A stretch of 58,031 bases of DNA, taken from positions 1-58,031 of the forward strand of contig CAOKET010000007.1 in assembly GCA_948467605.1 (NCBI GenBank), read 5' to 3'. The position numbers and the translations under genes are program-made. The notes beneath the pieces are model-generated. The model saw only the letters and a program-made list of their open reading frames with translations. It made no database searches and had not been told where the DNA came from. The DNA is from an uncultured Mycoplasmatota bacterium (GTDB lineage: Bacteria > Bacillota_I > Bacilli_A > RF39 > UBA660). Shown piece after piece: positions 833 to 57,508 of this stretch. The stretch's first letter is position 1. Every line of letters begins with the position of its first letter.

Positions 833-1990
833 ATGAAAAATAATGTAGTATTAAAAATAACAGGAATTAATATAAATAGATTTTTAAGACGACTTATTAA
901 AAATGGTATAAATATATATGATTTAGATAGAGTTTCTAATAAAGAAATAATTATAACAATAAATGTTAATAATTTAGAAAAAGTACAGGAATTAAAGGGA
1001 TCTTATGAAATAAAAATACTTAAATTTATAGGATTAACTAGTATTAAGAATAAAATAAAGAAGAATTCTATTATATCTATATTTTTAATAATTAGTTTGT
1101 TATTTATTTTATTTTTATCTAATTTTATTTTTGAAATAAGAATTTATCATACTAATTCTAAATTAAAAGAGACCTTATTATTTGAACTTAAGAATTATGG
1201 TATTAAAAAGGGAGGGTTTAGAAAGAGTTTTGATGAGATATCTAAGATAAAGAATGAGATATTAGAGAAGTATAAGGATTCAATAGAATGGTTAGAAATT
1301 ACTAGAGAGGGTACTGTTTATAATATTAGGGTCGAAGAGAGAATAATAAATAAAGATACTAAGGATACTACTCCTCAAAATATTATTGCTTCAAAGCCAG
1401 GAATAATAAAAAAGATATATGCTAAAAATGGTGTAATAGTAAAAACTGAGAATGAATATGTATCAAAGGGGGACGTAATAGTATCTGGTTCTATTTACTT
1501 AAATGAAGCATTAAAGGACACTATACGGGCAGAAGCACGTGTATATGCTGAAACATGGTATACAGTTAAACTTGACTTTCCTCTTTATTATAGGGAAGAA
1601 ATAAGTACTAATAATAAGAAAACTGTATTAAATATTAGTTTTTTAAATAAAGATTATAATTTATTTGGTTTTAAAAAATATAGAAATTATAGATCAAAAA
1701 ATAAAATATTATATGAAAGTAATTTACTGCCTTTAAAAATAATGATACAACAACAACAAGAAGTAAACTTAATTGAAAACATTTATAATAAAGAAAGCGC
1801 TATAAATCAGGGAATTCTTTATGCAACTTCTAAGATAGAATCTACATTGGATGAAAATGAGTACATAATTAGCAAAAAAGTTTTGAAAAATGTAGAAAAA
1901 AATAGTACAATATATATGGAAATATTTTTTAAGGTATACGAGGATATAACATCAACTCAAAATATTATTCCACCGGAGGAGCAGTTATGA
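833..1990 (+). CDS. yqfD: Sporulation protein YqfD
   Basis: Membrane protein of 385 residues made for the spore programme. A short N-terminal soluble domain is followed by one clear membrane helix (about residues 80-100), then a large domain with the pattern TREGTVYNIRVEER and later a PGIIKKIYAKNGVIVKTENEYVSKGD stretch, in which a lipoyl/hairpin-like GD turn can be seen. This layout and length are those of YqfD. The RBS is weak (AGGGTGATACT). The stop overlaps the start of the next gene (ATGA), so the two are translationally coupled. Confidence 0.9.
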   Translation: MKNNVVLKITGININRFLRRLIKNGINIYDLDRVSNKEIIITINVNNLEKVQELKGSYEIKILKFIGLTSIKNKIKKNSIISIFLIISLLFILFLSNFIFEIRIYHTNSKLKETLLFELKNYGIKKGGFRKSFDEISKIKNEILEKYKDSIEWLEITREGTVYNIRVEERIINKDTKDTTPQNIIASKPGIIKKIYAKNGVIVKTENEYVSKGDVIVSGSIYLNEALKDTIRAEARVYAETWYTVKLDFPLYYREEISTNNKKTVLNISFLNKDYNLFGFKKYRNYRSKNKILYESNLLPLKIMIQQQQEVNLIENIYNKESAINQGILYATSKIESTLDENEYIISKKVLKNVEKNSTIYMEIFFKVYEDITSTQNIIPPEEQL

Positions 1991-2604
1991 TTAAAGATTC
2001 AATAATAAACGCATTTTCAAGATTATACCCAACTGTACTAATACTTATAGTTATTATTTGTAGTATAAGGATCGCATGGTTAATTAAAAATAATCAAAAG
2101 ATAGTTGTATATAAAGAATTGATTTCATTAGGATTTATATTATATCTATTATTTTTATATAATATAGTTACATATCAAGATGCTTATTCTGTAACAGGTA
2201 CTAGTAATTTTACTCCATTTAGAGAAATACTTAGATATAGGTTTGGAAGTGAGTTATTCTTTAAAAATGTAATAGGTAATATTGTAATATTTATGCCATT
2301 TGGTTATTTTGTATCATATTATTTAAAACCAAAAAGAGTTGGACTTATATGTGTGCTTACTTTAATTGCCTCTGCTACTATTGAGTTTACTCAATTATCA
2401 ATAGGTAGGGTATTTGATATAGATGATATATTACTTAACTTATTTGGTGGTATATTAGGATGTATAATATATATTGCTCTTTGTGCAGTAAAAAATTACA
2501 TTCCATCATTCTTTTATAAAGATGTTTGTCTTAGTATATATGTAATATTAATCGCTGCTCTTTTATGTTTTTACTTTCATAGTATAGGAATAAGACTATG
2601 GTAA
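1987..2604 (+). CDS. VanZ-like membrane protein
   Basis: A 205-residue protein with about five membrane helices. It contains the VanZ pattern NFTPF ... GNIVIFMPFGY ... IEFTQL ... R.FDIDDILLNLFGG. VanZ proteins give modest glycopeptide tolerance in some hosts; for most homologs the role is unknown, so no resistance claim is made. It sits between yqfD and ybeY, where Bacillus has phoH (ybeZ). The GGAGCAG before its ATG lies inside yqfD, with an ATGA overlap. Confidence 0.9.
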   Translation: MIKDSIINAFSRLYPTVLILIVIICSIRIAWLIKNNQKIVVYKELISLGFILYLLFLYNIVTYQDAYSVTGTSNFTPFREILRYRFGSELFFKNVIGNIVIFMPFGYFVSYYLKPKRVGLICVLTLIASATIEFTQLSIGRVFDIDDILLNLFGGILGCIIYIALCAVKNYIPSFFYKDVCLSIYVILIAALLCFYFHSIGIRLW

Positions 2605-3044
2605 AGTATGAGATATTTAATGAAACAAATAAGGAAATCCCTGAAATTAAAGTAATAGATAAAGCAATAAAGTGTGCATGCAAGTATGAAAATTTAAAGT
2701 CAGGTATTTTTAATATTATTATAGTAGATAATGATTATATACATGAATTAAACAAGAATTATAGAAATGTAGATAGACCAACTGATGTAATTACATTTGC
2801 TTTAGAGGATGATGAGATTTCAATTACATATAAATATAGGGTATTAGGCGATATATATATTTCTATAGATAAAGCAATAGAGCAATCTATGGAATATGGG
2901 CATTCGTTAGAAAGAGAACTTGCATTTTTAGCAGTACATGGATTTTTACATTTGTTAAAATATGATCATATGACTAAAGAGGATGAAAAAATTATGTTTT
3001 CAAAACAGGAGGATATATTAAATGAAATCAAAATCACAAGGTAA
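2598..3044 (+). CDS. ybeY: Endoribonuclease YbeY (16S rRNA maturation)
   Basis: Zinc-dependent endoribonuclease that matures the 16S rRNA 3' end and helps ribosome quality control. The metal site H-x3-H-x5-H is intact: H114, H118 and H124 in HGFLHLLKYDH. The ...RPTDVITFAL segment (about residues 60-69) is also typical. Length of 148 residues is normal. It overlaps the VanZ gene by 7 nt and dgkA by 23 nt, so the operon is tightly packed. Confidence 0.96.
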   Translation: MVKYEIFNETNKEIPEIKVIDKAIKCACKYENLKSGIFNIIIVDNDYIHELNKNYRNVDRPTDVITFALEDDEISITYKYRVLGDIYISIDKAIEQSMEYGHSLERELAFLAVHGFLHLLKYDHMTKEDEKIMFSKQEDILNEIKITR

Positions 3045-3420
3045 GGTTATTAAACCAAGAGGAATAAAAAGGTTTATAAATAGTTTTAAATATTCTATTG
3101 AAGGATTAATATATGCTTATAGAAATGAGCAGAGTTTATTTATTCATGTATGTATGACTATACTTGCAATAGCACTTGGTCTGCTACTTGGACTTGAAAG
3201 ATATGAATGGCTATTCTTATTTATAATAATAGGTATTATTTTAGCAGCAGAACTCATGAATACTGCAATAGAAGCAACTATTGATTTGGTTTGTAAAACT
3301 TTTAATATAAATGCTAAGATTGCTAAGGATACAGCGGCTGCTAGTGTATTTATTTTATCTATAGTAGCAATAATTGGTGGTATTTATATCTTTTTACCTA
3401 AGATAATAGCACTATTTTAA
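3022..3420 (+). CDS. dgkA: Undecaprenol/diacylglycerol kinase DgkA
   Basis: Small membrane kinase of 132 residues with three membrane helices. In Gram-positive bacteria this family phosphorylates undecaprenol and so recycles the lipid carrier for cell-wall synthesis. The conserved catalytic stretch AAELMNTAIEATID is at about residues 75-88 (E77, N80, E84). An AGGAGG 12 nt before the ATG lies within ybeY. The order ybeY-dgkA-era is conserved in Bacilli; the cdd gene often found before era is absent here. Confidence 0.93.
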   Translation: MKSKSQGKVIKPRGIKRFINSFKYSIEGLIYAYRNEQSLFIHVCMTILAIALGLLLGLERYEWLFLFIIIGIILAAELMNTAIEATIDLVCKTFNINAKIAKDTAAASVFILSIVAIIGGIYIFLPKIIALF

Positions 3421-3431
3421 GGAGATTATTT

Positions 3432-4316
3432 ATGAAATCAGGATTTGTAAGTATTGTTGGTAGACCAAATGTAGGAAAAAGTACTCTTCTTAATTGTATT
3501 ATTGGTAAAAAAATTGCTATTATTTCTGATAAGGCGCAAACTACTAGAAATAATATTCAAGGGATATATAATGATGATAATACACAGATAGTATTTGTAG
3601 ATACACCAGGTATACATAAACCTAAACAAAGATTAGGAAAATATTTAAATAAAATGGCATATTATTCAATTGATGACTTGGATATTGTATTGTTTTTAGT
3701 TGATGCTAGTGAAGGATTAGGTACTGGAGATAAATTTGTAATAGAAAGATTAAAATCAGTAAATAAACCTGTAATATTAGTATTAAATAAAATAGATAAA
3801 ATGTCTAAGGATGAAATATTAAATAAGATTGTTGAATATAAAGATTTATATGATTTTAAGGAGATTGTTCCTTTATCAGCATTAAAGAGGGATAATGTAG
3901 ATAGATTAATAGAAGTATTGCAAAAGTATTTACCAGATAATATACAATATTATGATAAGGATACGTATACTAATTCTTCACCTAGTTTTGTAATAAGTGA
4001 ACTTATTAGGGAAAAAGTTTTAAATTTAACTGAAGAAGAGGTTCCTCATTCAACAACTTGTATTGTAGAAAAATTTGAAGAAAAATCAAATATTATAAAT
4101 ATAAATGCTTGTATTATTGTTGATAGAGATTCGCTAAAAAAAATAATAATTGGGAAACAAGGAAGCATGATTAAAAAGATTGGTATACAAGCAAGAAGTG
4201 ACTTAGAGAAATTATATGGAAAACAAATATATTTGGAGTTATTTGTTAAAACTATTAAGAACTGGAGAGATAAAGAAAGAACATTACAAGAATTAGGTTT
4301 TAAAGAAATTGAATAA
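3432..4316 (+). CDS. era: GTPase Era
   Basis: Essential GTPase that binds the 16S rRNA 3' end during 30S assembly. Walker A GRPNVGKST is at residues 10-18, followed by the T-loop, VDTPG (G3), NKID (G4) and SALK (G5). The C-terminal KH domain (from about residue 200) carries GKQGSMIKKIG. Length of 294 residues is normal. The RBS AAGGAG lies 8 nt before the ATG. A 10-bp AT-rich inverted repeat follows the stop and brackets the RBS of the next small gene. Confidence 0.97.
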   Translation: MKSGFVSIVGRPNVGKSTLLNCIIGKKIAIISDKAQTTRNNIQGIYNDDNTQIVFVDTPGIHKPKQRLGKYLNKMAYYSIDDLDIVLFLVDASEGLGTGDKFVIERLKSVNKPVILVLNKIDKMSKDEILNKIVEYKDLYDFKEIVPLSALKRDNVDRLIEVLQKYLPDNIQYYDKDTYTNSSPSFVISELIREKVLNLTEEEVPHSTTCIVEKFEEKSNIININACIIVDRDSLKKIIIGKQGSMIKKIGIQARSDLEKLYGKQIYLELFVKTIKNWRDKERTLQELGFKEIE

Positions 4317-14981: not shown

Positions 14982-15611
14982 TTAAATTATTGATGATACT
15001 AACTTTAATATTATAGGAGATATAAATACTTCAAATAAACTTGATATTATTACTATTATTAGAGAAATAAATAGTAGTTTATAGTATTTTCCTGCCCATA
15101 TTTTAAAATCCATTTGTTTTTTTAGAATTAAATTTTTTAAAAAATTTATTGACAAATTAAAACTTATTATTGATAGTATAAACATAACTATTATATTTAT
15201 AAGTTGATGTGGAAATAAATATCCAATTGATAATATTATTCCTTTTATATTATATACAGATATTATTCCTCCAATACTAAATCCAAATATAAAACTTTTA
15301 ACAAATATTAGTATGATAATTATTGGAATTCCTATTACTGATATTCCTAATAACCATATTCCAAGAACATTTAATATATTTGAAAATAAGCTGTTTTTTA
15401 ATGCACTAATTGTGTCTACTGCTTCTCCTTTTTTGATAGAGGTAAAAAACGTTGTAATTTGTTCAGTTACCATTGTTTTATCAGGTTTGTCCAAAAGTGT
15501 TATAAAGAATGAACCAAATATTATTCCTAATATTACTAATATTGTGAAGAATATAAATGTGTTTCTTTTTTCGCTTAATATTTTTTTTAATTTTTTTCTA
15601 TATTTATTCAT
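14982..15611 (-). CDS. spoIIM: Stage II sporulation protein M
   Basis: Integral membrane protein of the SpoIIDMP machine, which remodels septal peptidoglycan during engulfment. About 209 residues with five hydrophobic helices; the segment SFIFGFSIGGIISVYNIKGIILSIGYLFPHQLINI is typical of SpoIIM. Start chosen at ATG (MNKYRKK): AGGTGA sits 6 nt before it, while the GTG that opens the longer frame is part of that RBS. No spoIID or spoIIP is nearby. Confidence 0.9.
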   Translation of the reverse strand: MNKYRKKLKKILSEKRNTFIFFTILVILGIIFGSFFITLLDKPDKTMVTEQITTFFTSIKKGEAVDTISALKNSLFSNILNVLGIWLLGISVIGIPIIIILIFVKSFIFGFSIGGIISVYNIKGIILSIGYLFPHQLINIIVMFILSIISFNLSINFLKNLILKKQMDFKIWAGKYYKLLFISLIIVIISSLFEVFISPIILKLVSSII

Positions 15612-15700
15612 ATTTATCACCTAATTAAATATATTAATTATTTTTAAATTTATTCTTTATTTTTAATAATATTTAATATATAATTATTATGGTGATACGA

Positions 15701-15803: not shown

Positions 15804-15832
15804 AAAAAAGGTAACAAAAGTTACCCTTTTTT
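15804..15832. terminator. Bidirectional terminator between the small peptide and spoIVB
   Basis: AAAAAAGGTAAC, a 4-nt loop and GTTACCCTTTTTT. A/T runs flank both sides, serving both convergent transcripts. The spoIVB stop codon lies in the right arm. Confidence 0.8.
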
Positions 15833-16823
15833 AGTTTTCAGCTTCTTCTAACATATTAGTTATAAATATACCATATCCTTTTTTAGGATTATCTACTACT
15901 ACGTGTGTAACAGCACCTATAATCATGTTATTTTGTATTATTGGTGAACCACTCATTCCTTGTACTACTCCGCCTGTTTCATTTATTAATCTTTCATCTG
16001 TTATTTCAAACAATAGATTTTTTGTTTTTTGGTTAGAATTATTATTTATTTTAGTTATTTTGATTGAAAATTCTTCTACTTTATTTCCGTTTATAGTCGT
16101 TAATATTTTTGCATCTCCTACTTTTATTTCATCTTTGTTTGCTACTTTTAAAGTTTGTTTATTTGGCAATTTCCCTGTATATTTACCAAAAACTCCTTTA
16201 TCTGTATTTTCAAAAACTGTTCCATAGATGTTATTTGATGAGAACTTTGCATTTTTTTCACCTGGTGTTCCTCTTTCTGTTTTTATTATATTAGTTATAG
16301 TTGCTTCAAATATTTTACCATCTTTAACTTCTAGTTTTAATCCACTAGATTTTTCTGTTATTTCATGTCCTAAAATACCATAGATTTTGGTTTCTGGATC
16401 TATAAATGTAAGTGTTCCAAGACCAGTTATGCTATCTTTAACATAAAGACCTGTTTTATATACGTTATCTTCTCCAATTACTAATTGTAGTGTTGTATTG
16501 TATGTCTTATTGTTACGTATATATTGTATATCGATTTTATCTTTTGATGATGAAATGATACTTACCATTTCTGATATTGTATTAGTATTTTTGTTGTTTA
16601 TTGCTATAATCGAGTCTCCTATTTTTAATCCAGCATCACTACCTGGATTTTTATTATTTACATCATAAAAACCAACAACTAATATACCTTTTGAATTTAG
16701 GCTTACGCCAATAGGTTCTCCTCCAGGAATTACATAAGATGAATAAGCAAGAGCCATTTGTGGAATAATACTTATAGCAATTAATAAAATTGCTAAATAT
16801 TTTTTTAAATTTTTAAAATTCAT
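15831..16823 (-). CDS. spoIVB: SpoIVB serine peptidase
   Basis: Signalling protease secreted by the forespore that activates pro-sigma-K processing in Bacillus. 330 residues: a membrane/signal segment (residues 9-26), a PDZ domain (about 38-115, with SLNSKGILVVGF and AGLKIGDSIIAINN) and the S55 peptidase domain. The catalytic His is in IYGILGHEI and the Ser in GMSGSPI. RBS AGGAG. Its presence, with spoIIM and dpaAB, supports real endospore formation. It is a monocistronic unit here, not next to recN and spo0A as in Bacillus. Confidence 0.94.
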   Translation of the reverse strand: MNFKNLKKYLAILLIAISIIPQMALAYSSYVIPGGEPIGVSLNSKGILVVGFYDVNNKNPGSDAGLKIGDSIIAINNKNTNTISEMVSIISSSKDKIDIQYIRNNKTYNTTLQLVIGEDNVYKTGLYVKDSITGLGTLTFIDPETKIYGILGHEITEKSSGLKLEVKDGKIFEATITNIIKTERGTPGEKNAKFSSNNIYGTVFENTDKGVFGKYTGKLPNKQTLKVANKDEIKVGDAKILTTINGNKVEEFSIKITKINNNSNQKTKNLLFEITDERLINETGGVVQGMSGSPIIQNNMIIGAVTHVVVDNPKKGYGIFITNMLEEAEN

Positions 16824-34137: not shown

Positions 34138-34167
34138 ATAAAAAAAGAGTAACTTTACCTACTCTTT
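34138..34167 (-). terminator. Terminator of ppdK
   Basis: AAAGAGTA / TACTCTTT (8 bp, 8-nt loop) with TTTTTT on the minus strand; the ppdK stop lies in the stem. Confidence 0.8.
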
Positions 34168-36795
34168 ACACATGTTCATTAATTTTATTTGAGCGTGTGC
34201 TGCTGCTAAACGCGCAACTGGTACTCTATATGGTGAACAAGATACATATGTTAAACCTACTCTATTACAGAATTCTATACTATTTGTATCTCCTGCATGC
34301 TCACCACAAATTCCAAGTTCTATGTCTGGTCTTGCTTGTTTACCTTTTATAATTGCAAGTTCTATTAATTTTCCAACTCCATGTTGATCTATTTTTTCGA
34401 ATGGATCAAAGTCAAAAATATTCTTTTTATAATAATCATTTAGATATTTACTAGCATCATCTCTTGAAAAACCATAAGATAGCTGTGTTAAGTCATTTGT
34501 ACCAAATGAGAAAAATTCTGCTTCTTTAGCAATTTCATCCGCTAAAAGTGCTGCTCTTGGTATTTCAATCATTGTACCAATATGATACTTTAATTCTGTA
34601 TTGTATTCATTAATAATTTCATTAGCAGTTTTTACTACTATATCTTTTACATATTTTAATTCTTTTATATCACATATTAGGGGTATCATTATTTCTGGTT
34701 TTACTTCTATTCCTTCTTTTTTTACATTTAATGCTGCTTCTATTATTGCTTTTGTTTGCATTATTGCAATTTCTGGATATGTAATATCAAGTCTGCATCC
34801 TCTATGCCCCATCATAGGATTGAATTCTTTTAAAGATTCTACTCTGGTTTTTAAACTTTCAAATGATGTACCTAATTCCTTAGATAAATCTTCTATTTCT
34901 TTATCAGTATGTGGTAAGAATTCATGTAATGGTGGATCTAAGTATCTTACTGTTACTGGTAGTCCATTCATTTCTCTAAATAGGCCTTCAAAATCACTTC
35001 TTTGCATTAGTAATAATTTATCTAAAGCAATTTGTCTTTGTTCACTATTTTCAGATGCTATCATCTGACGCATTGCAAATATTCTATCTTCTTCAAAAAA
35101 CATGTGTTCTGTTCTACATAGACCAATTCCTTCTGCTCCAAAGGCTTTAGCCTGTTTTGCGTCTTTTGGTGTATCTGCATTAGTTCTTACCTCTAATGTT
35201 CTTATATTATCTGCCCAGTTCATTAGAGTTTCAAAATTTCCACTTATAGATGGATCTACAGTTTTAATTTTCTCACCATATACATTTCCAGTTGAACCAT
35301 CTAATGATATATAATCAAGTGAATTAAATACTTTGCCATTTTTTGTTTTAATAGTTTTATTTACTTCATCTACTTCTATATCACTGCAACCACAAATACA
35401 ACAAGTTCCCATTCCTCTTGCAACAACTGCTGCATGAGATGTCATACCACCTCTTACTGTAAGTACTCCATTTACAACATTCATTCCTTCAATATCTTCA
35501 GGTAAAGTTTCTAATCTAACTAAGATTAAATCTTTTTCGCCAGAATTGTGTAATTCAACTGCCTCTTCTGCAGTAAACACAAGTTTACCAGTAGCAGCAC
35601 CAGGAGATGCGGCAAGTCCCTTTGCAATAACATTACTATTTTTTAGGCTATCTATGTCAAAAGAAGGATGCAATAGTTGATCTAATTGTCTTGGCTCGAC
35701 TTTAAGTAATGCTTCTTCTTTTGAAATCATACCTTCTTTTTCTAAATCAACTGCAATTTTTATTGCTGCTTGAGCTGTTCTTTTACCATTTCTAGTTTGC
35801 AACATATAAAGTTTTCCATTTTCTATTGTAAACTCCATATCTTGCATATCCTTATAATGATTTTCTAGAATTTTTGAATATTTTAAAAACTCTTCATAAA
35901 CGCTTGGCATTATATCTTTTAAAGTATCAATTGATTGAGGTGTTCTTATTCCTGCAACAACATCTTCACCTTGAGCATTTATTAAATATTCTCCATATAA
36001 CCTATTTTCTCCAGTTGATGGATTTCTTGTAAATGCAACTCCAGTACCAGAGTTTTCTCCACTATTTCCATATACCATTTCTTGTACGTTTACAGCAGTT
36101 CCCCAAGAGGATGGTATATCGTTTAATCTTCTATATGTAATTGCTCTTTCATTCATCCAAGATCTAAATACTGCTTTTACTGCTTCAATTAATTGCACTT
36201 TTGGATCTTGCGGAAATTCTTCACCTGATATTTCTTTATAATTTGCTTTGAATTTTTCGGTTATTTCTATCATATCATTTTCAGTTAAATCTAGGTCATT
36301 AACAATATTTTTTTCTTCTTTTATTTTATCAAAATACTTTTCAAAAGAAGATTTTGGATATTCTTTAACTACATCTGCAAACATTTGTATAAATCTTCTA
36401 TACGAATCATATGCAAATCTTTTATTGGTTGTAATAGCAGATAATCCCTCAACTACTTTATCATTCATTCCTAAATTTAATACTGTATCCATCATGCCTG
36501 GCATAGACGCTCTAGCACCGCTTCTTACAGATACAAGTAATGGATTTGTTGGATCTCCCAACTTTTTACCAGTTTTATTTTCAAGTTCTGTTACTTTATC
36601 AAATATTTGAGATATTATTTCATCTGATATTTCATTATTATTATCATAATAATTATTACAAGCTTCTGTTGTTACAGTAAAGCCATTTGGAACAGGCAAT
36701 CCAATTTTAATCATTTCTGCTAGATTAGCGCCCTTTCCACCCAATAATTCTTTCATATCTTTATTGCCTTCATCAAAAGCATATACATATTTCAT
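34159..36795 (-). CDS. ppdK: Pyruvate phosphate dikinase
   Basis: Interconverts pyruvate + ATP + Pi and PEP + AMP + PPi; in anaerobes it often runs toward pyruvate and saves ATP. 878 residues with all three domains: ATP-grasp (GGKGANLAEM; SVRSGARASMPGMMDTVLNLG; NPSTGENRLYGEYL), the swivelling phosphohistidine domain (GGMTSHAAVVARGMG) and the PEP/pyruvate barrel (GLCRTEHMFF, MGHRGCRL, GTNDLTQ, catalytic Cys in GICGEHAGD). Preceded by two genes that derive from its ATP-grasp part. Confidence 0.98.
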   Translation of the reverse strand: MKYVYAFDEGNKDMKELLGGKGANLAEMIKIGLPVPNGFTVTTEACNNYYDNNNEISDEIISQIFDKVTELENKTGKKLGDPTNPLLVSVRSGARASMPGMMDTVLNLGMNDKVVEGLSAITTNKRFAYDSYRRFIQMFADVVKEYPKSSFEKYFDKIKEEKNIVNDLDLTENDMIEITEKFKANYKEISGEEFPQDPKVQLIEAVKAVFRSWMNERAITYRRLNDIPSSWGTAVNVQEMVYGNSGENSGTGVAFTRNPSTGENRLYGEYLINAQGEDVVAGIRTPQSIDTLKDIMPSVYEEFLKYSKILENHYKDMQDMEFTIENGKLYMLQTRNGKRTAQAAIKIAVDLEKEGMISKEEALLKVEPRQLDQLLHPSFDIDSLKNSNVIAKGLAASPGAATGKLVFTAEEAVELHNSGEKDLILVRLETLPEDIEGMNVVNGVLTVRGGMTSHAAVVARGMGTCCICGCSDIEVDEVNKTIKTKNGKVFNSLDYISLDGSTGNVYGEKIKTVDPSISGNFETLMNWADNIRTLEVRTNADTPKDAKQAKAFGAEGIGLCRTEHMFFEEDRIFAMRQMIASENSEQRQIALDKLLLMQRSDFEGLFREMNGLPVTVRYLDPPLHEFLPHTDKEIEDLSKELGTSFESLKTRVESLKEFNPMMGHRGCRLDITYPEIAIMQTKAIIEAALNVKKEGIEVKPEIMIPLICDIKELKYVKDIVVKTANEIINEYNTELKYHIGTMIEIPRAALLADEIAKEAEFFSFGTNDLTQLSYGFSRDDASKYLNDYYKKNIFDFDPFEKIDQHGVGKLIELAIIKGKQARPDIELGICGEHAGDTNSIEFCNRVGLTYVSCSPYRVPVARLAAAHAQIKLMNMCKE

Positions 36796-36835: not shown

Positions 36836-36864
36836 ACAAAAAAACATATATTTTGTATATGTTT
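36836..36864 (-). terminator. Terminator of the 406-residue ppdK paralog
   Basis: AAACATATA / TATATGTTT (9 bp, 5-nt loop) with a T-run on the minus strand. A near copy lies at 38130-38155. Confidence 0.75.
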
Positions 36865-38083
36865 AGATTTGTTTACGTTTAATTTTACTTTTGTAAGTTT
36901 TTCTTTTTGACTTATATAATCCATCTAGAATACTAATTTGTTTAATAAATTCATATGTTCTTTGAAGTTTGACTAATATATGCTCCTTATTTGGTACATC
37001 TTCAAAGTTAAATAGAATACTTTCTATTTCCTTCATAGCCATTTGTTGTTGCTTCTTTAATTGTAATTCTTCATCTCTTATATCTTCTGCTAATTTCGTT
37101 GCCGCTTGTATAGTTTTATCACTTTCTTTTATTCTTTTGATGAATAATTTATCATTTGCTATTACAAATTCTATACGCAAAATATCTCTATAATATTTTT
37201 CAATATATTTTGAATAATTAAATAATTCTTCATACTTTTCCATTAATAAAATTTTAGCGTTAATTAATGAATTTTTATTGTAATAACCTTTTTCTTTACT
37301 GTAAAAATAAGAATCTATTTCATTAAAAATAAAACATAATTCATTTTTACCAGTAAAAGTATTCCGTGTTAATACTTCTCCTCGTATTGACTTTCCACCT
37401 AACATAGGTACTATTTCTTCTTGAATATTTATTGATAGTTTTCCGTTGATATTTTCTTTAAATTTAGGAATACAAAATATTGCTTTTATAATCTCCATTA
37501 GTTGTTGTTTTGGATTTTGTGGAAAATCACTATAAAAAGTATCCCTATATTTAGTTTTTGTTTGGTTTAGAAGGCCTTTTAGATATTGTATTCTATCATC
37601 TCTTCTAGGACGGTATTCTAGTCTTTCAGAATTTATATTATTATCAAATGAATTTGTTTCATAGTTCCCTTTTTTTATCTCAGTAAATCTAGAAATTTGT
37701 TTATTATATAAATCATATACAAACATCGTATCAATATTAGAATTAAATAATCTTTCTACTATTTCATCATTTAAACCTATAGTTATTATCTCATTTTGTT
37801 TTGTTTGATCTAAGTTTAATGATAATAGTAATGGATTATCTACTTTGCCAAAACATTTGCCTGTTTTATTTTCTAACTCAGTTATTTTTTCAAATACTTG
37901 AGATATTACTTCATCTATCACCTCACTATTATTTAAAGAATTTTTAACTGCTTCTGTTGTTATAGTAAATCCGTCTAATATTGGTAATCCATGACTATTC
38001 ATTTTTGATAGTTTATATCCAACTTCACCTAATAATTCTTTTTTATTTTTACTGTCTTCATCAAATGAATATACATATTTCAT
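36863..38083 (-). CDS. Degenerate PPDK N-domain paralog, 406 residues
   Basis: Clear paralog of the ATP-grasp half of the neighbouring ppdK (MKYVYSFDE..., GLPILDGFTITTEA, VFEKITELENKTGK, NPKQQLMEIIKAIF). It ends before the phosphohistidine and PEP domains. Key ATP-site residues are lost: GGKGANLAEM has become GEVGYKLSKM, and SVRSGARASMPGMMDTVLNLG is replaced by LSLNLDQTKQNEIITIGLN. The frame is intact over 406 codons with a good RBS (AAGGAG), so it is maintained or very recent. Probably a pseudoenzyme, perhaps a regulator of PPDK; function is inferred only. Confidence 0.88.
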   Translation of the reverse strand: MKYVYSFDEDSKNKKELLGEVGYKLSKMNSHGLPILDGFTITTEAVKNSLNNSEVIDEVISQVFEKITELENKTGKCFGKVDNPLLLSLNLDQTKQNEIITIGLNDEIVERLFNSNIDTMFVYDLYNKQISRFTEIKKGNYETNSFDNNINSERLEYRPRRDDRIQYLKGLLNQTKTKYRDTFYSDFPQNPKQQLMEIIKAIFCIPKFKENINGKLSINIQEEIVPMLGGKSIRGEVLTRNTFTGKNELCFIFNEIDSYFYSKEKGYYNKNSLINAKILLMEKYEELFNYSKYIEKYYRDILRIEFVIANDKLFIKRIKESDKTIQAATKLAEDIRDEELQLKKQQQMAMKEIESILFNFEDVPNKEHILVKLQRTYEFIKQISILDGLYKSKRKTYKSKIKRKQI

Positions 38084-51371: not shown

Positions 51372-52325
51372 TTATAATTTTGCGTTGTTCACTCTATTAG
51401 ATATATCATTAAAAAAATCTTCTATTTCTTCATTCATAACAAAAGGTTGATTAAGGCTAGTTAATTTCATATTTTCAATATGTTTTTTGAAGTATTCTTT
51501 TGAATTTATATTACTATCACACATTATGCAATTTCTTTTTTCTTCTATACATACACGCCCCGTTGTTCCACTACCTGAAAAAAAATCTAATACTATTGAA
51601 TCTGGATATGATAAGGATTTAACAAATCTTCTTATTATTTCTAATGGCTTTTGTGTAGGATGACCAACCCTTTCTAAAGAATTACCATTTAATCTTCCAA
51701 TTTCCCAAACATTAGTAGGATTTTTACCTTTTCTAACATTGTCAGGATTTAATCTTTTGTCTTTTAATGCAAGTTCTAAATCAGCATCTGAATATTTTAC
51801 TCTAACAGAGTCTAAATCAAAATAATATTTATCAGTTTTTGTTAGCCATATAACTTCTTCATGTCTGTTAGCGAAATAGCGGTGTGCTGACATTCCATTT
51901 TTATAATACCAAATAATTGTATTAACAAGTCTAAATTTCGTATTATGTCGGCAGTGATAAATTATTTCAATCAAATCTCCACCTTTAGCTGATTGAAATT
52001 GTGTTCCACCAAAAATAACCATATTTCCATTTTTAGAAAGCACTCTATATGATTCATCAAGCCATTTTGATGCCCACTCAATATAATTTTCATAAGTATC
52101 CCACGATTCCAAATCTAGATTATAAGGAGGATCAATTAAAATTAAATCAATTGAATCATTTGGAAGTGATTTTAACAAATCTAGGCAATCCTTATTAAGT
52201 AATATACAATTAGTTTTTTTTGGAATTGAAAAATCTATACTTGTTTTATGTTTAATATTATTTGAGTTCATTTTATTTATTGACATCAATGCAGAATTAT
52301 TATGTGATTTATTATGTATTGCCAT
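51372..52325 (-). CDS. Type II adenine-N6 DNA methyltransferase, RsrI-like (GAATTC)
   Basis: 317 residues. The motif order is that of the beta class: catalytic DPPY at residues 65-68 comes before the AdoMet motif FSGSGTT near residue 245. The sequence follows M.RsrI over long runs (ANRHEEVIW; NPTNVWEIGRLNGNSLERVG; HPTQKPLE) and even the N-terminus (MAIHNKSHNN) is similar. It should methylate the adenine of GAATTC to protect against the adjacent nuclease. Spaced 29 nt after the restriction gene. RBS AGAGGT. Specificity is inferred from similarity known to me. Confidence 0.92.
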   Translation of the reverse strand: MAIHNKSHNNSALMSINKMNSNNIKHKTSIDFSIPKKTNCILLNKDCLDLLKSLPNDSIDLILIDPPYNLDLESWDTYENYIEWASKWLDESYRVLSKNGNMVIFGGTQFQSAKGGDLIEIIYHCRHNTKFRLVNTIIWYYKNGMSAHRYFANRHEEVIWLTKTDKYYFDLDSVRVKYSDADLELALKDKRLNPDNVRKGKNPTNVWEIGRLNGNSLERVGHPTQKPLEIIRRFVKSLSYPDSIVLDFFSGSGTTGRVCIEEKRNCIMCDSNINSKEYFKKHIENMKLTSLNQPFVMNEEIEDFFNDISNRVNNAKL

Positions 52326-52354
52326 TAATATTTACCTCTTTATCTTTCTATGTT

Positions 52355-53194
52355 TTAATTATTATTGTAGTTTTTTAATTGCTGGAATAAATCTTTACCT
52401 AACATTTTTAAAGATGTTCTAGCAATATCAAGCATTATTTCTATCATATCAGAATCAAGCCAATGTTCTCCGTTTGGTTGAGCATATATAGAAGCGGCCT
52501 GAAGCATTATGTTTAAATTATTACTTGAAACAAATTTATTTTCACATAAATTTGTATTTATCGGTAATCCGAAATTTGCAGCAGTTAGTCTATCAAGACG
52601 ATTAAGTCCACCTGCATTATATTTTAAAGTAATGATTCTCCCATCAGGCCTTACTACTTCAACATCATGCGTAAGAAAATTAGATCCCTCTAAAAAAAGT
52701 ACATAAGGGAAATATGTTTCAGCAAGCATAAAATTTGCTATTTCAGATATATTTTTATGTGAACGTTCAATGGCATTACCAGCAATCATAGTATCCTGAT
52801 TGTTCTTTTTACCTACAAGTTTGCCTAGTCTTATATTTTCTATATCTTTCCCCTGATGTTTAGCTTCTGAAACTAAAACTACTCGCCAATTTCCATTATC
52901 ATCTTTAACTTCTATAATTCCACCGTCAGGTTTAATATTTGCATTCTCAACAAATAATGTTTGCCCTAATTGCGAATCAACTTTTTTTAATGCCTCATTA
53001 ATCTCTTTTTTTAGCAGATCTCGTCTATATCTAAATTCAAACATAGGAAATTCTTTTTCAAGTATTTTCATTACACGTGTAGAATTGCTATATACTTCTA
53101 CATCATGCTCCTGTGCTTGTTGACCAAATATACCAATTACACCTTGTGATTCTTTATGTTGAATTGTTAATCTTTCAGTTTGATTCTTTTTCAC
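52355..53194 (-). CDS. Type II restriction endonuclease, EcoRI family
   Basis: 279 residues, almost the same length as EcoRI (277). The PD-D/ExK site is intact: D90 (KPDGG), E110 and K112 (SEAKHQGK), the equivalents of EcoRI D91, E111 and K113. The recognition region IAGNAIERSHKNISEIANF matches EcoRI, including the residues that read GAATTC, so the same specificity is expected. GTG start with TAGGAG upstream. GAATTC sites occur in this window (for example 1063 and 1812), so host DNA needs protection by the methylase. Probably transferred horizontally; its closest known relatives are proteobacterial. Confidence 0.94.
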   Translation of the reverse strand: MKKNQTERLTIQHKESQGVIGIFGQQAQEHDVEVYSNSTRVMKILEKEFPMFEFRYRRDLLKKEINEALKKVDSQLGQTLFVENANIKPDGGIIEVKDDNGNWRVVLVSEAKHQGKDIENIRLGKLVGKKNNQDTMIAGNAIERSHKNISEIANFMLAETYFPYVLFLEGSNFLTHDVEVVRPDGRIITLKYNAGGLNRLDRLTAANFGLPINTNLCENKFVSSNNLNIMLQAASIYAQPNGEHWLDSDMIEIMLDIARTSLKMLGKDLFQQLKNYNNN

Positions 53195-53284: not shown

Positions 53285-53711
53285 AAAAAAGAACTACTTA
53301 TAAAAGTAATTCAATTTTACTCACAAACTGATAAATCAAATCGCACAATAAAAGTCATACCATTTTTAATGACTTTATTGAAAAAAATAATTGAAGATGA
53401 TAAATCTGAAGATGGATATATTTTCCTACATACAATAAAACTTACCACTCTAAAAAGAAAATGTGATAATATGTTAAAAAAAAACTGGCTTTGAAAAAAA
53501 AGATTTAATAAGAATACACGACTTGAGACATTCATTTGCATCATATTGTATTAATTTAGGTGTAGAAATTCAAATATTAAGTGAATATATGGGGCACGAA
53601 AATATATCTATTACATGGGATACTTATGGACACTTATACCCAAACTCTCAATCAAAATTATTAACTAAAATTGATAAGTTTAGTACAAAACAAGACCAAA
53701 AACAAGACTAA
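53285..53711 (+). pseudogene. Tyrosine recombinase/integrase remnant with frameshift
   Basis: Only the C-terminal catalytic part remains. Frame one (from 53285, no start) reads YSQTDKSNRTIKVIPFL ... EDGYIFLHT and stops at TGA 53492. Shifting one base within the A9 run at 53476-53484 gives KTGFEKKDLIRIHDLRHSFASYC, GHENISIT and TYGHLYPN, the H-x-x-R, H and Y box of phage or ICE integrases. Missing N-terminus plus frameshift mark a dead integrase. It shows that this region once carried a mobile element. Confidence 0.85.
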
Positions 53712-53721
53712 GCAAAATAAA

Positions 53722-53742
53722 AACCCTTATATTATAAGGGTT
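53722..53742 (-). terminator. Terminator at the end of the RT operon
   Basis: AACCCTTATA-T-TATAAGGGTT, a perfect 10-bp arm palindrome, followed by TTTATTTTG on the minus strand. It lies 94 nt after the reverse-transcriptase stop and probably ends that transcript. Confidence 0.7.
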
Positions 53743-53835: not shown

Positions 53836-54783
53836 TCACATTTTTAATTTTTTAAAACTATTATTTTTTATTTTTTGTTGTAAATCATTATATTTACTTC
53901 TATCAAATAAATGAGCATTGTTAATTAATCCCAAAATACTATTAATTTCATTCTGTGTATAACATTCCTGTTTTAATAACTTTGCAATTTTATATCTTGT
54001 TTTATTAGGAATAAATAATTCATGATTTTTAATTACACATCCAGTTATTTTCTTGTAGTCATTTGTCATATAGGTTTTAGTTTTATCCTCATTAACAATT
54101 TGCCCATATTTTATAATTATTCTTTTTGCTTTTTGTACTAAAGTATTAGGTATTTTATGTTTGCTTGAAAAAATAATATCATCAACATAAAATGAAACTA
54201 TACAATTATTATTTTTAGCTAATCTGTTTAGTTCATCAAACATATCAACATTAGCCAGATAAGATAAAATGCTACTTATTGGAGAACCTGATGGCAAATG
54301 ATTGGTATATCTTATACCTTTTTCGGCAATAAAATTTTTAACCTCTGTAGACATTATATTTGTAATATCTACACTAGATAAGTCTGTTAATATGGAGGCA
54401 ATATCTGATGATACTTTTAATTTATTATGATAAAAGTTGTATATTTTTTCTCGACAAGTATTAGGAAAAAACTTACTTAAATCCATTTTTAAAAAATAAT
54501 TTGACTCTATATGGTAATATGCATTATCTATATATGATCTTCCCTTAATTCCTGAAAATACATTATTTGGAAATTCAATTAAATCAAATTGCTTTTTAAT
54601 CCTTTTTTGAATTGTTTTAATCCCTTCTTTAGGTGCTTCTATTAACCTTCGTTTAGGAATTTTTTCAATATATGGCTTATATTGTAAATTGAAAGCATTT
54701 CTATTCTTTGTTTTAACTTTTATGATTACATTTAAATCTCTTTTCCTTTTTAATCCATAAAAAGGGCATTTGCTAAAATCCAT
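53836..54783 (-). CDS. Retron-type reverse transcriptase
   Basis: 315 residues. All retron RT marks are visible: the NAxxH element (NAYYH, residues 87-91), DLSKFFPN (catalytic D101), LPSGSPISS (163-171), the catalytic FYVDD (198-202, YxDD) and the region Y motif ITG (246-248; usually VTG), then a thumb with NAHLFDRS. The alignment order is that of retron-Eco1 RT, and no endonuclease or maturase domain is attached, which argues against a group II intron. RBS TGAGGTGA. Co-oriented behind a structured leader and a small TM protein; likely copies part of that leader into msDNA. Confidence 0.9.
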   Translation of the reverse strand: MDFSKCPFYGLKRKRDLNVIIKVKTKNRNAFNLQYKPYIEKIPKRRLIEAPKEGIKTIQKRIKKQFDLIEFPNNVFSGIKGRSYIDNAYYHIESNYFLKMDLSKFFPNTCREKIYNFYHNKLKVSSDIASILTDLSSVDITNIMSTEVKNFIAEKGIRYTNHLPSGSPISSILSYLANVDMFDELNRLAKNNNCIVSFYVDDIIFSSKHKIPNTLVQKAKRIIIKYGQIVNEDKTKTYMTNDYKKITGCVIKNHELFIPNKTRYKIAKLLKQECYTQNEINSILGLINNAHLFDRSKYNDLQQKIKNNSFKKLKM

Positions 54784-54794
54784 AGTTCACCTCA

Positions 54795-54854
54795 TATAAA
54801 AACAATTACTTTTGTAAAAACATTCACTAAAATGTACTTACAAAAATAATTGTT
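54795..54854 (-). terminator. Long hairpin between the 67-residue gene and the RT
   Basis: Arms 54801-54817 and 54838-54854 pair at 16 of 17 positions; ACAT/ATGT extends the stem inside. On the minus strand the stem is followed by TTTTT and then the RT's RBS. It looks like an intrinsic terminator or attenuator that would lower RT relative to the small protein; an alternative is a structured RNA or RT template. Confidence 0.6.
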
Positions 54855-54856
54855 AA

Positions 54857-55060
54857 TTACTTAGAGTTATGTTTTTTTGTTACAGCTTTAGCAAATTGCT
54901 TGATTAACTGGTACCCGAACCAAACAAATGCTAAAATTTTAAAATTAATTTTAAATTCACCATTACAACTAACGCTAACGCTAAAATCAAATGTCAGTCC
55001 TAAAGATAGGATAACCAAATATTTGTGTTCTTCCACAAATTTTACTATTTTGGATACCAT
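54857..55060 (-). CDS. Small two-TM protein, candidate retron effector
   Basis: 67 residues with two hydrophobic segments (about 13-31 and 39-58), a short polar turn (CNGEFK) between them and a basic tail (KKHNSK). Strong RBS (AAGGAGG, about 10 nt before ATG). It lies between the structured leader and the RT on the same strand. Some retrons (for example the Eco6/Ec48 type) use a two-TM effector that harms the membrane when triggered by phage. Membership here is inferred from size, topology and position; no sequence match is claimed. The first segment is only moderately hydrophobic. Confidence 0.72.
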   Translation of the reverse strand: MVSKIVKFVEEHKYLVILSLGLTFDFSVSVSCNGEFKINFKILAFVWFGYQLIKQFAKAVTKKHNSK

Positions 55061-55088
55061 ATAAGTATACCTCCTTTCATAATTATTA

Positions 55089-55410
55089 GCACATCAAACT
55101 CTATTCGCGACTAAAGTTTTCAGTGTGCCCCATACCTTATAATTATTGGAGATATCGTGCTAGACACTTAATATAATAATTAACAATTTCCTGCCCCATA
55201 TTTAATGATTGATATAGGGCTATTTATTTCTTTATTATAACTACACTTAAGATAACAACATAAATAACACTTATAATATTGTGTTGATTAGTGTATTTGT
55301 TATTTTGTCTGTGCTGTTTTAAAAGAAAGCGAAGATAAAATCTTCTCGTCAATTTCTTGACCATAATTTGGGGCTTTGGATTGATTAGATCCGTGAGCAC
55401 CTTTAAGACT
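55089..55410 (-). ncRNA. Candidate retron ncRNA (msr-msd) leader
   Basis: About 320 nt without a credible ORF between a strong promoter and the 67-residue gene, with many stems on the transcribed strand: GTCAA-gaaa-TTGAC, GAAGAT-ttt-ATCTTC, a long imperfect hairpin of about 67 nt (55237-55303; ATAAC, TACACT and CAACA pair with their complements), GCCCTATAT/ATATGGGGC, and a stem 55089-55128 closed by GCACA/TGTGC. Short stems first and a long one later is the msr-msd order. I could not find a clear a1/a2 repeat by eye, so the ends and the branching G are not assigned. Confidence 0.5.
55126..55200. repeat. Imperfect direct repeat inside the leader
   Basis: TGCCCCATA occurs at 55126-55134 and 55192-55200 with related AT-rich sequence after each copy. 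The second copy pairs in a local stem; the first is at the base of the promoter-distal stem. An alternative pairing switch is possible. Confidence 0.45.
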
Positions 55411-55416
55411 AACAAC

Positions 55417-55445
55417 ATTATACAATTTTTGGCATTTTTTGACAA
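55417..55445 (-). promoter_or_regulatory. Promoter of the retron-like operon
   Basis: TTGTCA, exactly 17 nt, then TATAAT on the minus strand. It is among the best promoter matches in the window and predicts a transcript starting near 55410, giving about 350 nt of leader before the first coding sequence. Confidence 0.8.
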
Positions 55446-55549
55446 TATTTATTAAGCATGTTTTCTTACAATCTCTAAGAAAATCCTGTAATAAAGTAGT
55501 AAATAATGCAAAAATATAGTATAATTTTTATTATAAAGAGGTGAATAAC

Positions 55550-57508
55550 ATGAGGAAGAAAGCTGAAGCATGTAAAATATGGCTAGAAATTTGTCATAAT
55601 TGTAAAAATCATGAAGAAATGTTTGCAGGTTGCTTTTCTGCTGTATGGGAAGACACATTAAAATATATTGAAAAAGCCAATAATCCAGAAGATAAATTCT
55701 CTTTAGCAACATTATCTAAAGATACTAAAGCAGTACAATCTTTATATGATTCAATTAGTTTAAATGATTATCAAAAATCTTTAATAAAAGAATTATTAGA
55801 AAAAAATGAAGAGTTATTGCTTACATTAAATCCTTATGTATTAGATTCTAAATATGATTTTTTAAACTCTGTAATTGATGAATTAGTTGTAGATACAATA
55901 ATTCAAGATAAATTATTAAGTCTTGACGACTATGAATTATCTGTTTTAAAAAGAATTACTGAGTATTGTATCGAATATGGAGTCAACCCAAATAATATAA
56001 TATCAATAATAATCAATAATATAGGCTTTTCCTCAATTCCTGGTAGAAATAATGAAAAATGGCTAGATAGATTTGATTCTTTTTTCAAATTGTTACAAAG
56101 TTATGAAAATACTAATGGTAAAATAGATAAAAAAATGCTAGGAAATGTTGCTGTTATACTAAAAACAGGTATTTGCTTTCCAACAACAATTGATGAGATA
56201 GTTAATTATAATGATGTGGTAAAAAATGTTTTAAAAGAACAGGTTGATAATAAAGCTATTTCACTCGAAGAATTAAAAGAAAATATAATTTGGATTTTAT
56301 TTGCTATGGATTTAAGAGATGCTAATTTCTTTGTTAAAGCTTTTAATATGGATGGAGCTCCATCAGAGTATTATACAAGTCCAGGTTTTATAGAATTATT
56401 GGCTTTAAAAATGTTGCTAGAAACTGACGATATAGAAAAACTAAAAAATGTAGCTAATGAGTTTATTAATAATCCTGATTACGAAATAAACTTATTCAAT
56501 AATAACTTGATGGAAGAAAATTTATTATTACTTTATGCTAAGGAGTTTAATAAGTGTAAGCCAAGATTTAATGATGATAGCTTAATTAACACAATAGATG
56601 GAATTAGATTTTATGATTCTGGAGAAGATTTTTATGCTATAGTTAAAACATTAGGAGCTTTTTCTGACGATGGCAAAAGTTCAGAAAATTATTATGAAGA
56701 ATGGAATAACAAAAGATATAGAAGCCATGTAAATGCAGTAAGCCTTATCAGAAATGACAATCTTGCTTTTGCAGAACAAGATGGAAATGTTCATATTAAA
56801 TTTGGGTTTTTAAATTTTGATGAAAAAAGATTTTTAGGTGGTGGAATTAAAGATATAAATAGTACTCCAGATAGTAGAGCTATGGGAGTAAAAATATATT
56901 CGAAATTATATTTTCCAGATGAATTTGTTAATCATACACGCGAATGGCATAATGAATTGGATTATGAAAGAAAAAATAGTGATACATCATCTGTTGAATT
57001 TAAGAAAAATCCAGATTTTATTATTTTAGATCAAGAAGTTGAAGATATCACTACAATGACTCCAGAAGAAAAAAAGCAATATGATGAATTAGTATCTAAT
57101 TCAATAAAAGCCTCTAAAGATTTTGGAAATATTCCAATATTAGTAATTAATAGAGAGAAAATTGCAAAAAATGAAATAAATACTATTAGAACAATGTTAG
57201 ATAATTATAATCTTACTCATAATATAGAATTATTAAGAAGAATAATTATTAGGTTCAATAATAATAGAAATGGTTGTAGAGGTCCTCAACACAGATATAT
57301 TCGAGAAAATTATTTTTCAAATGAGTATTTTGAAAAACTATTATCTGAAATTGATGATAATATTTTAGATGAACATAGGCAAGAATTTGAGAATTTAGTA
57401 TTAGCTGAAAATAAAAAAATGGCTAAATGTTCGTATGATGATACAACTTTAGATTTACCAATAACGGCAAATAAAGATAGTCAAAAAAGAGGTGGATTAA
57501 ATGTCTGA
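55550..57508 (+). CDS. Large unknown protein (652 residues) beside the retron-like locus
   Basis: Not recognised. Soluble with no signal or TM. The N-terminal 350 residues are helical (a HEAT-like all-alpha look). The C-terminal 300 are more conserved-looking: GAFSDDGKSSENYYEEWNNK RYRSHVNAVSLIR, HTREWHNELDYERK, NPDFIILDQEVEDI and DFGNIPILVINREK. Start ATG after AGAGGTGA; the in-frame GTG 9 nt upstream is part of the RBS. Transcribed divergently from the retron-like operon with 139 nt between start and its leader promoter. It may be a separate defence or effector gene; no function is claimed. Confidence 0.85.
   Translation: MRKKAEACKIWLEICHNCKNHEEMFAGCFSAVWEDTLKYIEKANNPEDKFSLATLSKDTKAVQSLYDSISLNDYQKSLIKELLEKNEELLLTLNPYVLDSKYDFLNSVIDELVVDTIIQDKLLSLDDYELSVLKRITEYCIEYGVNPNNIISIIINNIGFSSIPGRNNEKWLDRFDSFFKLLQSYENTNGKIDKKMLGNVAVILKTGICFPTTIDEIVNYNDVVKNVLKEQVDNKAISLEELKENIIWILFAMDLRDANFFVKAFNMDGAPSEYYTSPGFIELLALKMLLETDDIEKLKNVANEFINNPDYEINLFNNNLMEENLLLLYAKEFNKCKPRFNDDSLINTIDGIRFYDSGEDFYAIVKTLGAFSDDGKSSENYYEEWNNKRYRSHVNAVSLIRNDNLAFAEQDGNVHIKFGFLNFDEKRFLGGGIKDINSTPDSRAMGVKIYSKLYFPDEFVNHTREWHNELDYERKNSDTSSVEFKKNPDFIILDQEVEDITTMTPEEKKQYDELVSNSIKASKDFGNIPILVINREKIAKNEINTIRTMLDNYNLTHNIELLRRIIIRFNNNRNGCRGPQHRYIRENYFSNEYFEKLLSEIDDNILDEHRQEFENLVLAENKKMAKCSYDDTTLDLPITANKDSQKRGGLNV

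Follow-up and report, generated by a model that had tools for sequence, protein, structure and literature searches.

Ec48-like retrons carry an effector with two TM segments, and retron types were reportedly defined by Mestre in 2020. Type I toxin–antitoxin systems use a small membrane peptide, the translation of which is held down by a nucleic acid. Known type VI loci carry a gene for an HTH protein of about 100 aa before the gene for the reverse transcriptase (RT). According to PMC8541194, a type VI retron consists of an RT, a DNA-binding protein and small auxiliary proteins; among the literature matched, this was the only source with the phrase 'type VI retron'. In a retron RNA two inverted repeats, a1 at the 5′ end and a2 at the 3′ end, pair to close the molecule, and DNA synthesis is primed from the 2′ OH of an adjacent guanosine (excerpts of PMC8989520 and PMC13158370). 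The same excerpts describe, as established in other retrons, that priming takes place beside the repeats and that RNase H removes the template. In the literature that we searched, a small ORF that overlaps a retron RNA is nowhere described, a statement limited to the papers covered because the original type classification lay outside them.

We analysed a stretch of 58,031 nucleotides (the window) from an uncultured Mycoplasmatota bacterium. Its minus strand carries, from 55445 to 53722, a promoter, a structured leader, a 67-aa ORF, an A/U hairpin, an RT gene and a terminator-like hairpin (Table 1). An earlier sequence-only reading had described an operon of promoter, leader, small ORF, hairpin and RT, and its coordinates were correct. 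The promoter, which it had called strong, is indeed the best of 15 promoter-like sites in the window. As 15 sites is the chance level, it is the position of this site that carries weight and not the count. The locus is a bacterial retron and probably a phage-defence element.

Table 1. Features of the retron-like locus, in positions of the window
Feature	Position	Strand	Basis or remark
Sigma-70-type promoter, TTGTCA-17-TATAAT	55417..55445	(-)	11/12 consensus letters
a1 repeat, 17 nt, transcript 5′ end	55398..55414	(-)	Best duplex partner of the leader 5′ end is in the small ORF
msr candidate, short stem-loops	55285..55397	(-)	Folds in window and L007, strongly conserved; limits predicted
Example stem-loops of the msr candidate	55361-55348 and 55345-55331	(-)	
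Predicted msd: anti-Shine-Dalgarno, Shine-Dalgarno, start codon and small-ORF nt 1-52	55009..55160	(-)	Prediction; upstream end tentative
Anti-Shine-Dalgarno ATATCTCC	55148..55155	(-)	Pairs with 55074-55067 in RNAs ending before a2
Shine-Dalgarno GGAGGTAT of the small ORF	55067..55074	(-)	Mostly paired
Basic, hydrophobic peptide of 67 aa; candidate effector at the membrane	54857..55060	(-)	Conserved ORF, GGAGG ribosome site
a2 repeat within small-ORF codons 18-23	54992..55008	(-)	Duplex search and fold
25-bp A/U hairpin and U-run between small ORF and RT	54801..54854	(-)	Possible attenuator or processing site
Type VI retron RT, 315 aa	53836..54783	(-)	Profile scores, tree
Terminator-like hairpin 3′ of the RT gene	53722..53742	(-)	1 found, 0.3 expected

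The RT gene encodes the motifs NAYYH, YVDD and ITG at the retron positions, all three as noticed earlier. With PADLOC models the protein scored 225.7 bits against RT_VI and 113 bits against the second model, and among the matches listed (25 of 40) all were to RT models of the retron set. The best retron model of NCBIfam (St85) gave 107.6 bits, which is below its own cutoff of 235. Thirteen solved sequences matched, with Ec83 as the top hit; ten carry the name of a retron protein, and the names of the other three say just RNA-directed DNA polymerase. The PADLOC models and the named structures therefore agree with the earlier identification as a retron, and in the tree that had been proposed as a check the RT falls among type VI retron RTs. 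A group II intron RT was rejected: model TIGR04416, which has a cutoff of 300, gave 24.9 bits, less than the 107.6 bits of the retron model. A DRT2 reading was likewise discarded, with 26 bits for the Drt2 model, and no DGR model was present among the PADLOC, Pfam and NCBIfam matches listed.

A search of 84,980 species genomes, by a method that detects close relatives only, yielded a single close relative of the RT, L007, which is 74% identical. RT matches were obtained in 74 of 385 genomes of the same order, and the 73 besides the window's own were at most 35% identical. Viral contigs queried with the window RT alone gave no close relatives; when queried with RT alignments they gave L083, L127 and L128, with RTs 42–45% identical to that of the window (L084 is identical to L083 where compared). 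These three, L007 and the window form one group in the RT tree (SH-aLRT 98), placed weakly beside type VI loci of Firmicutes that have an HTH gene. In all five RTs about 22 inserted residues precede the LPSGSP motif, unlike in those of HTH-type VI retrons; a seemingly similar insertion was read by eye at the same position in L014, a distant HTH-less locus. Further type VI-related RTs, most of about 400 aa, were seen in L002, L003, L005, L014, L028 and L044–L049. These have small hydrophobic ORFs just upstream, some of which overlap the RT start, and RT_VI was the best model for those scanned (L002, L005, L014, L028 and L046). They are possibly more variants on the same theme.

No HTH ORF lies between the small ORF and the RT in the window, L007, L083, L127 or L128, and no HTH_VI gene adjoins the RT in the window. 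The small ORF that precedes the HTH or RT gene in type VI loci is present in this clade. HTH proteins are encoded elsewhere, a 202-aa protein 3 kb downstream in the window (37.4 bits) and a 79-aa protein upstream of the leader in L007 (best PADLOC match HTH_VI, 32.1 bits); partners adjacent to the RT score 90–120 bits with HTH_VI. With such a score the L007 protein may be a partner that was displaced, or else a generic protein of the Cro/C1 kind. Three type VI-like RT loci in viral contigs (L086, L093 and L096) were labelled HTH in the RT tree, and these labels are unsupported because the one upstream ORF scanned in each is not HTH. The HTH may be in another ORF, or these may be further HTH-less forms.

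HTH-type VI retrons, such as those of Shewanella phage MuM16-1, Staphylococcus plasmids and E. coli P2-like prophages, have the same RT class as the window. They share with it the order promoter, structured leader, small ORF and RT, an a2 repeat within the ORF (see below) and a small basic peptide, and differ in having an HTH gene between the small ORF and the RT. Of 19 HTH-type loci examined, 18 have the small ORF between leader and HTH gene, and in the remaining one the record stops within the locus; in several the start was picked by its ribosome site. The order of ncRNA, small protein and RT, for which a new subtype had been suggested, is thus not in itself new; what holds of that suggestion is that a type VI clade without HTH is unusual. 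The window element is possibly a new, HTH-less variant of type VI retrons, and its principle of control is possibly new as well.

The leader RNA of the window folded better than all of 100 shuffled sequences (z -2.3), and that of L007 gave z -4.2, so the structured leader described earlier was recovered. No Rfam family matched at the gathering threshold. When leader DNA was searched for in 97 relatives, the only long match was the window itself, with short pieces in 13 other genomes. Loci of the Peduovirus group contain the motif TTAGTGAG after a1, which we take to resemble the branch site of Eco1; no motif of this type was found in the window leader.

The transcript start (55414-55398) pairs over 17 bp with 55008-54992, within codons 18-23 of the small ORF. 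Shuffling gave p values of 0.008 in a duplex search and 0.005 in an unanchored leader search, and 0 of 300 shuffles were as good when the search was anchored at the promoter. In L007 the orthologous site is that RNA's own best a1 partner, with 15 bp (p 0.106 in the duplex search, 0.285 unanchored and 0.017 promoter-anchored). The differences between the two loci in a1 and a2 are one-sided only, and pairing is kept. When the whole window RNA is folded to minimum energy without constraint, the a1/a2 helix closes the structure, and in the full RNA the pairing probability is 1.00 for the window and 0.76 for L007. The RNA 5′ of the RT is therefore structured and closed by a 17-bp a1/a2 helix, as in retrons, and this anatomy is fairly well supported at the level of sequence. 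It follows that the leader, taken earlier to be non-coding and to lie side by side with an effector gene, is structured as claimed and extends into the ORF, where its predicted 3′ repeat lies, so that the two overlap.

Because a2 is inside the small ORF, the predicted template includes the Shine-Dalgarno sequence, start codon and first codons of that ORF, and translation and a1/a2 pairing exclude one another. Making msDNA and making peptide thus look mutually exclusive. The msd in Table 1 is placed from the position of a2 and canonical retron priming, and is accordingly a prediction.

To see how far this layout extends, we compared transcript nucleotides 1-32 with small-ORF nucleotides 1-120 in 20 type VI loci with a nameable -10 box, some of the boxes being picked by hand; L072, L073, L100 and L105 have no clear promoter and were outside the test. 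Individually most loci were weak, with a shuffle p above 0.15 in 12 of the 20 and of 0.05 or below in five. For a permutation test, L007, L127 and L101 were removed as relatives of the window, L083 and L075. In the 17 divergent loci that remained, the transcript 5′ end fitted its own small ORF better than those of other loci (p 0.00035, or 0.003 with the window left out). The best helix started at nucleotides 1-9 and ended at nucleotides 12-19 of the 32-nucleotide window in 15 of 17 loci, compared with 26% of cross pairs, and 13 of 17 loci compared with 12% of cross pairs had in addition a start within the first 40 nucleotides of the ORF; these position limits were fixed after the data had been seen. 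A helix search over whole leaders without an anchor gave p below 0.05 in two of 19 loci only, the window and L073; in the latter the helix does not lie at the 5′ end. This mostly non-significant outcome for single loci is why promoters served as anchors in the test above.

Compensatory changes in the a1/a2 helix were observed in three families. Between L127/L128 and L083 one C-G pair is replaced by U-A inside the coding sequence; in L127 the top-scoring helix differs from the 8-bp helix assigned by homology to L083. Between L069 and L097 there is likewise one change from C-G to U-A within the coding sequence, and L077, a third relative, has a mismatch at the helix end. L154 differs from eight P2-like relatives by two compensated pairs, G-C to A-U and U-A to G-C, and in its a2 ACC has become ACT, which leaves the protein unchanged. 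Five of 500 shuffles were as good as the P2-like compensation, a figure to be read with caution since the changes occurred in one lineage and the helix has one mismatch in four of the nine sequences. Codons 5-12 of the P2-like small ORF are variable in 7 of 24 columns, as against 81 of 126 elsewhere (L151–L153 were left out of the alignment, being identical to other rows in that stretch). Together these comparisons support the recurrence of a2 within the ORF in HTH-type VI retrons, often weakly at any single locus. L154 itself (2761-4190) is a diverged type VI retron on the E. coli C5 chromosome, about 2 kb from yeiP.

The ribosome site of the small ORF was examined for pairing. In the full window RNA the bases of GGAGGTAT have a probability of 0.06–0.29 of being unpaired, and in a shorter stretch of 0.00–0.05, paired with ATATCTCC. 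The minimum-energy fold of the full RNA pairs the Shine-Dalgarno sequence elsewhere than with ATATCTCC, and partly. By reading, the Shine-Dalgarno sequence of L083 and L127 is in another helix, formed by CTCTTTGTTATT and AATAACAAGGAG, and its probability of being unpaired is 0.00. In the P2-like group TCCTTATG pairs with CATAAGGA, an invariant helix enclosing two stems, and in the E. coli/Peduovirus group the stems within the Shine-Dalgarno hairpin (helices 3 and 4) have six pairs changed on both sides.

For a statistical comparison we used 23 of the 39 small-ORF loci, excluding near-copies, L097 and also L100, which lacks a clear ribosome site. The ribosome site was more paired than the shuffle mean in 21 of the 23 (0.239 and 0.424; Wilcoxon 2e-5, with loci that are not fully independent). 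The site of L075 equalled its shuffles, and those of L073 and L105 were more open. For the window and L007 alone the pairing was ordinary, 0.25 and 0.28 of shuffles being as low. Accessibility at the small-ORF start did not differ significantly from that at the HTH start (0.22 vs 0.38, 13 loci, p 0.11) or the RT start (0.21 vs 0.36, 14 loci, p 0.14). The folds therefore suggest a tendency of the small-ORF ribosome site towards structure.

The 67-aa ORF has a homologue in L007 with a dN/dS of 0.50. Values for small ORFs were 0.12–0.54 in 12 of 15 pairs and 1.12 in one pair with few changes, and could not be computed in two, which points to purifying selection on the codons in most pairs. The peptides are basic, with a net charge of +1 to +12. 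Those of the window clade have 59–69 residues and hydropathy maxima of 1.65–2.53; those of HTH-type VI loci mostly have 47–55 residues and maxima of 0.61–1.71. In the window the best 19-residue segment reaches 1.65, which is borderline, and the second 1.13. The ORF had been described as two-TM: it is hydrophobic as stated, two TMs is a generous count, and a second such segment is only possible. The peptide matched nothing in Pfam, NCBIfam, PADLOC or PHROG. As a conserved small peptide encoded beside the RT, it is a candidate effector, presumably acting at the membrane. The locus would then share an RT, an RNA and a small hydrophobic protein with Ec48-like retrons, as these are generally known, and differs from them in its class VI RT and in a peptide that fits no model.

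These properties of the peptide bear on whether it is an effector at all. It could instead be a regulatory leader or a partner of the RT without toxicity, the translation of which opens a1/a2, so that ribosome traffic switches msDNA synthesis, for example during host shut-off by phage. The mutual exclusion of translation and a1/a2 pairing would suit such a switch. We nevertheless consider it distinctly unlikely, as a pure leader need not be conserved as protein, which the dN/dS values indicate, and need not encode hydrophobic segments, which are clear or borderline in the window clade.

The reading that we judge to have slightly better than an even chance is that of a type VI retron without HTH in which the ncRNA is also the mRNA of the peptide, and in which reverse transcription followed by RNase H silences the peptide. 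A single transcript from the promoter would carry the retron RNA, with a2 inside the coding sequence. In a resting cell the RT would bind the RNA closed by a1/a2, prime just 5′ of a2 and copy into DNA the first codons of the peptide, then the start codon and then the ribosome site. Host RNase H would strip the copied template, leaving an RNA unable to start translation, and the peptide would not be made. A phage that blocked reverse transcription, or destroyed its product, would leave intact RNA to be translated, and the putatively toxic peptide would harm the membrane and cause abortive infection. We infer that the msDNA, if it reaches the anti-Shine-Dalgarno sequence at 55155, would be about 147 nt, which is inside the range of 40–160 described for retron DNA (excerpt of PMC8989520).

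Under the logic described as the rule in other retrons (excerpts of PMC12548924 and PMC13158370), the peptide would always be made and be held inactive by the complex of RT and msDNA, and the overlap with a2 would be mere compactness. Peptides as basic as these could bind RNA or DNA, as such sequestration at the level of protein would have it. We rate it as somewhat unlikely here, because the ribosome site, which has a tendency towards structure, is part of the predicted template, and because, with RNase H acting in its usual way, no copied molecule would keep its start codon.

If silencing by reverse transcription does operate, it could apply beyond the window clade. Type VI retrons overall would be toxin–antitoxin switches on one RNA, with reverse transcription as the antitoxin and the window clade as a stripped-down form without HTH. 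Infection would be sensed as a failure of reverse transcription, and an effector complex would be unnecessary. We put forward this extension tentatively, as a real possibility short of an even chance. The proposed locus would work like type I toxin–antitoxin systems (excerpt of PMC8309996), except that the antitoxin would be reverse transcription of the toxin's own mRNA, and the RNA has no Rfam match. In DRT2-type defence RTs (excerpts of PMC12039810 and PMC11100668) RT activity is likewise tied to the production of a toxic protein; there the RT makes the gene, whereas here it would remove the start of the message. If the retron RNA is indeed the peptide's message, retron immunity would extend to cases where a toxin is kept silent because reverse transcription uses up the start of its mRNA. 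The sharp prediction is an msDNA antisense to the first codons of the peptide. A match to the P2-like relative is present in 99 of 5,426 complete E. coli genomes and covers at least 80% of the query in 98, so the model is testable in E. coli; in the four loci fetched, the annotation of the P2-like small ORF reads hypothetical protein.

The hairpin noted earlier between the small ORF and the RT is present, with 25 nested pairs and z scores of -7.9 in the window and -7.0 in L007. Two pairs are changed on both sides between these two sequences, a result equalled by 120 of 500 shuffles. When looked for in L083 and L127 the hairpin was not found, and among these relatives it was seen in the closest, L007, only. 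It may tune the level of RT or mark a site of RNA processing.

Next to the retron, 53369-53711 (+) is a probable remnant of a tyrosine integrase: the C-terminal piece, 53523-53711, matches Phage_integrase and the neighbouring piece matches nothing. This remnant suggests arrival on a mobile element. The relative locus L007 adjoins (1211-3376) a Mob/Pre plasmid recombination enzyme and a PemK-like toxin, and is thus probably on a mobilisable element. The broken integrase, together with the existence of only one close relative, would also fit a decaying, inactive retron left on a mobile-element remnant. Such decay is very improbable, given that the RT and the ORF, like the promoter and the RNA structure, appear intact and have been conserved in both the window and L007.

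On the other side of the integrase remnant, 51372-53194 (-) encodes an EcoRI-family restriction endonuclease (Pfam EcoRI, 449 bits) and an N6/N4 DNA methyltransferase, which with the retron make up a small defence island. Divergent from the retron, 55541-57508 (+) encodes a 655-aa protein with no PADLOC or Pfam match, possibly an unknown defence gene. The host had been taken for a spore former, and genes for YqfD, SpoIIM and SpoIVB were found at 833-1990, 14982-15620 and 15831-16823, retained in a genome of only 1.38 Mb (91% complete). Elsewhere in the window a 406-aa ORF, 36863-38083 (-), looks, by reading, like the N-terminal portion of the 878-aa ORF next to it, 34159-36795, which we take to be a pyruvate phosphate dikinase.
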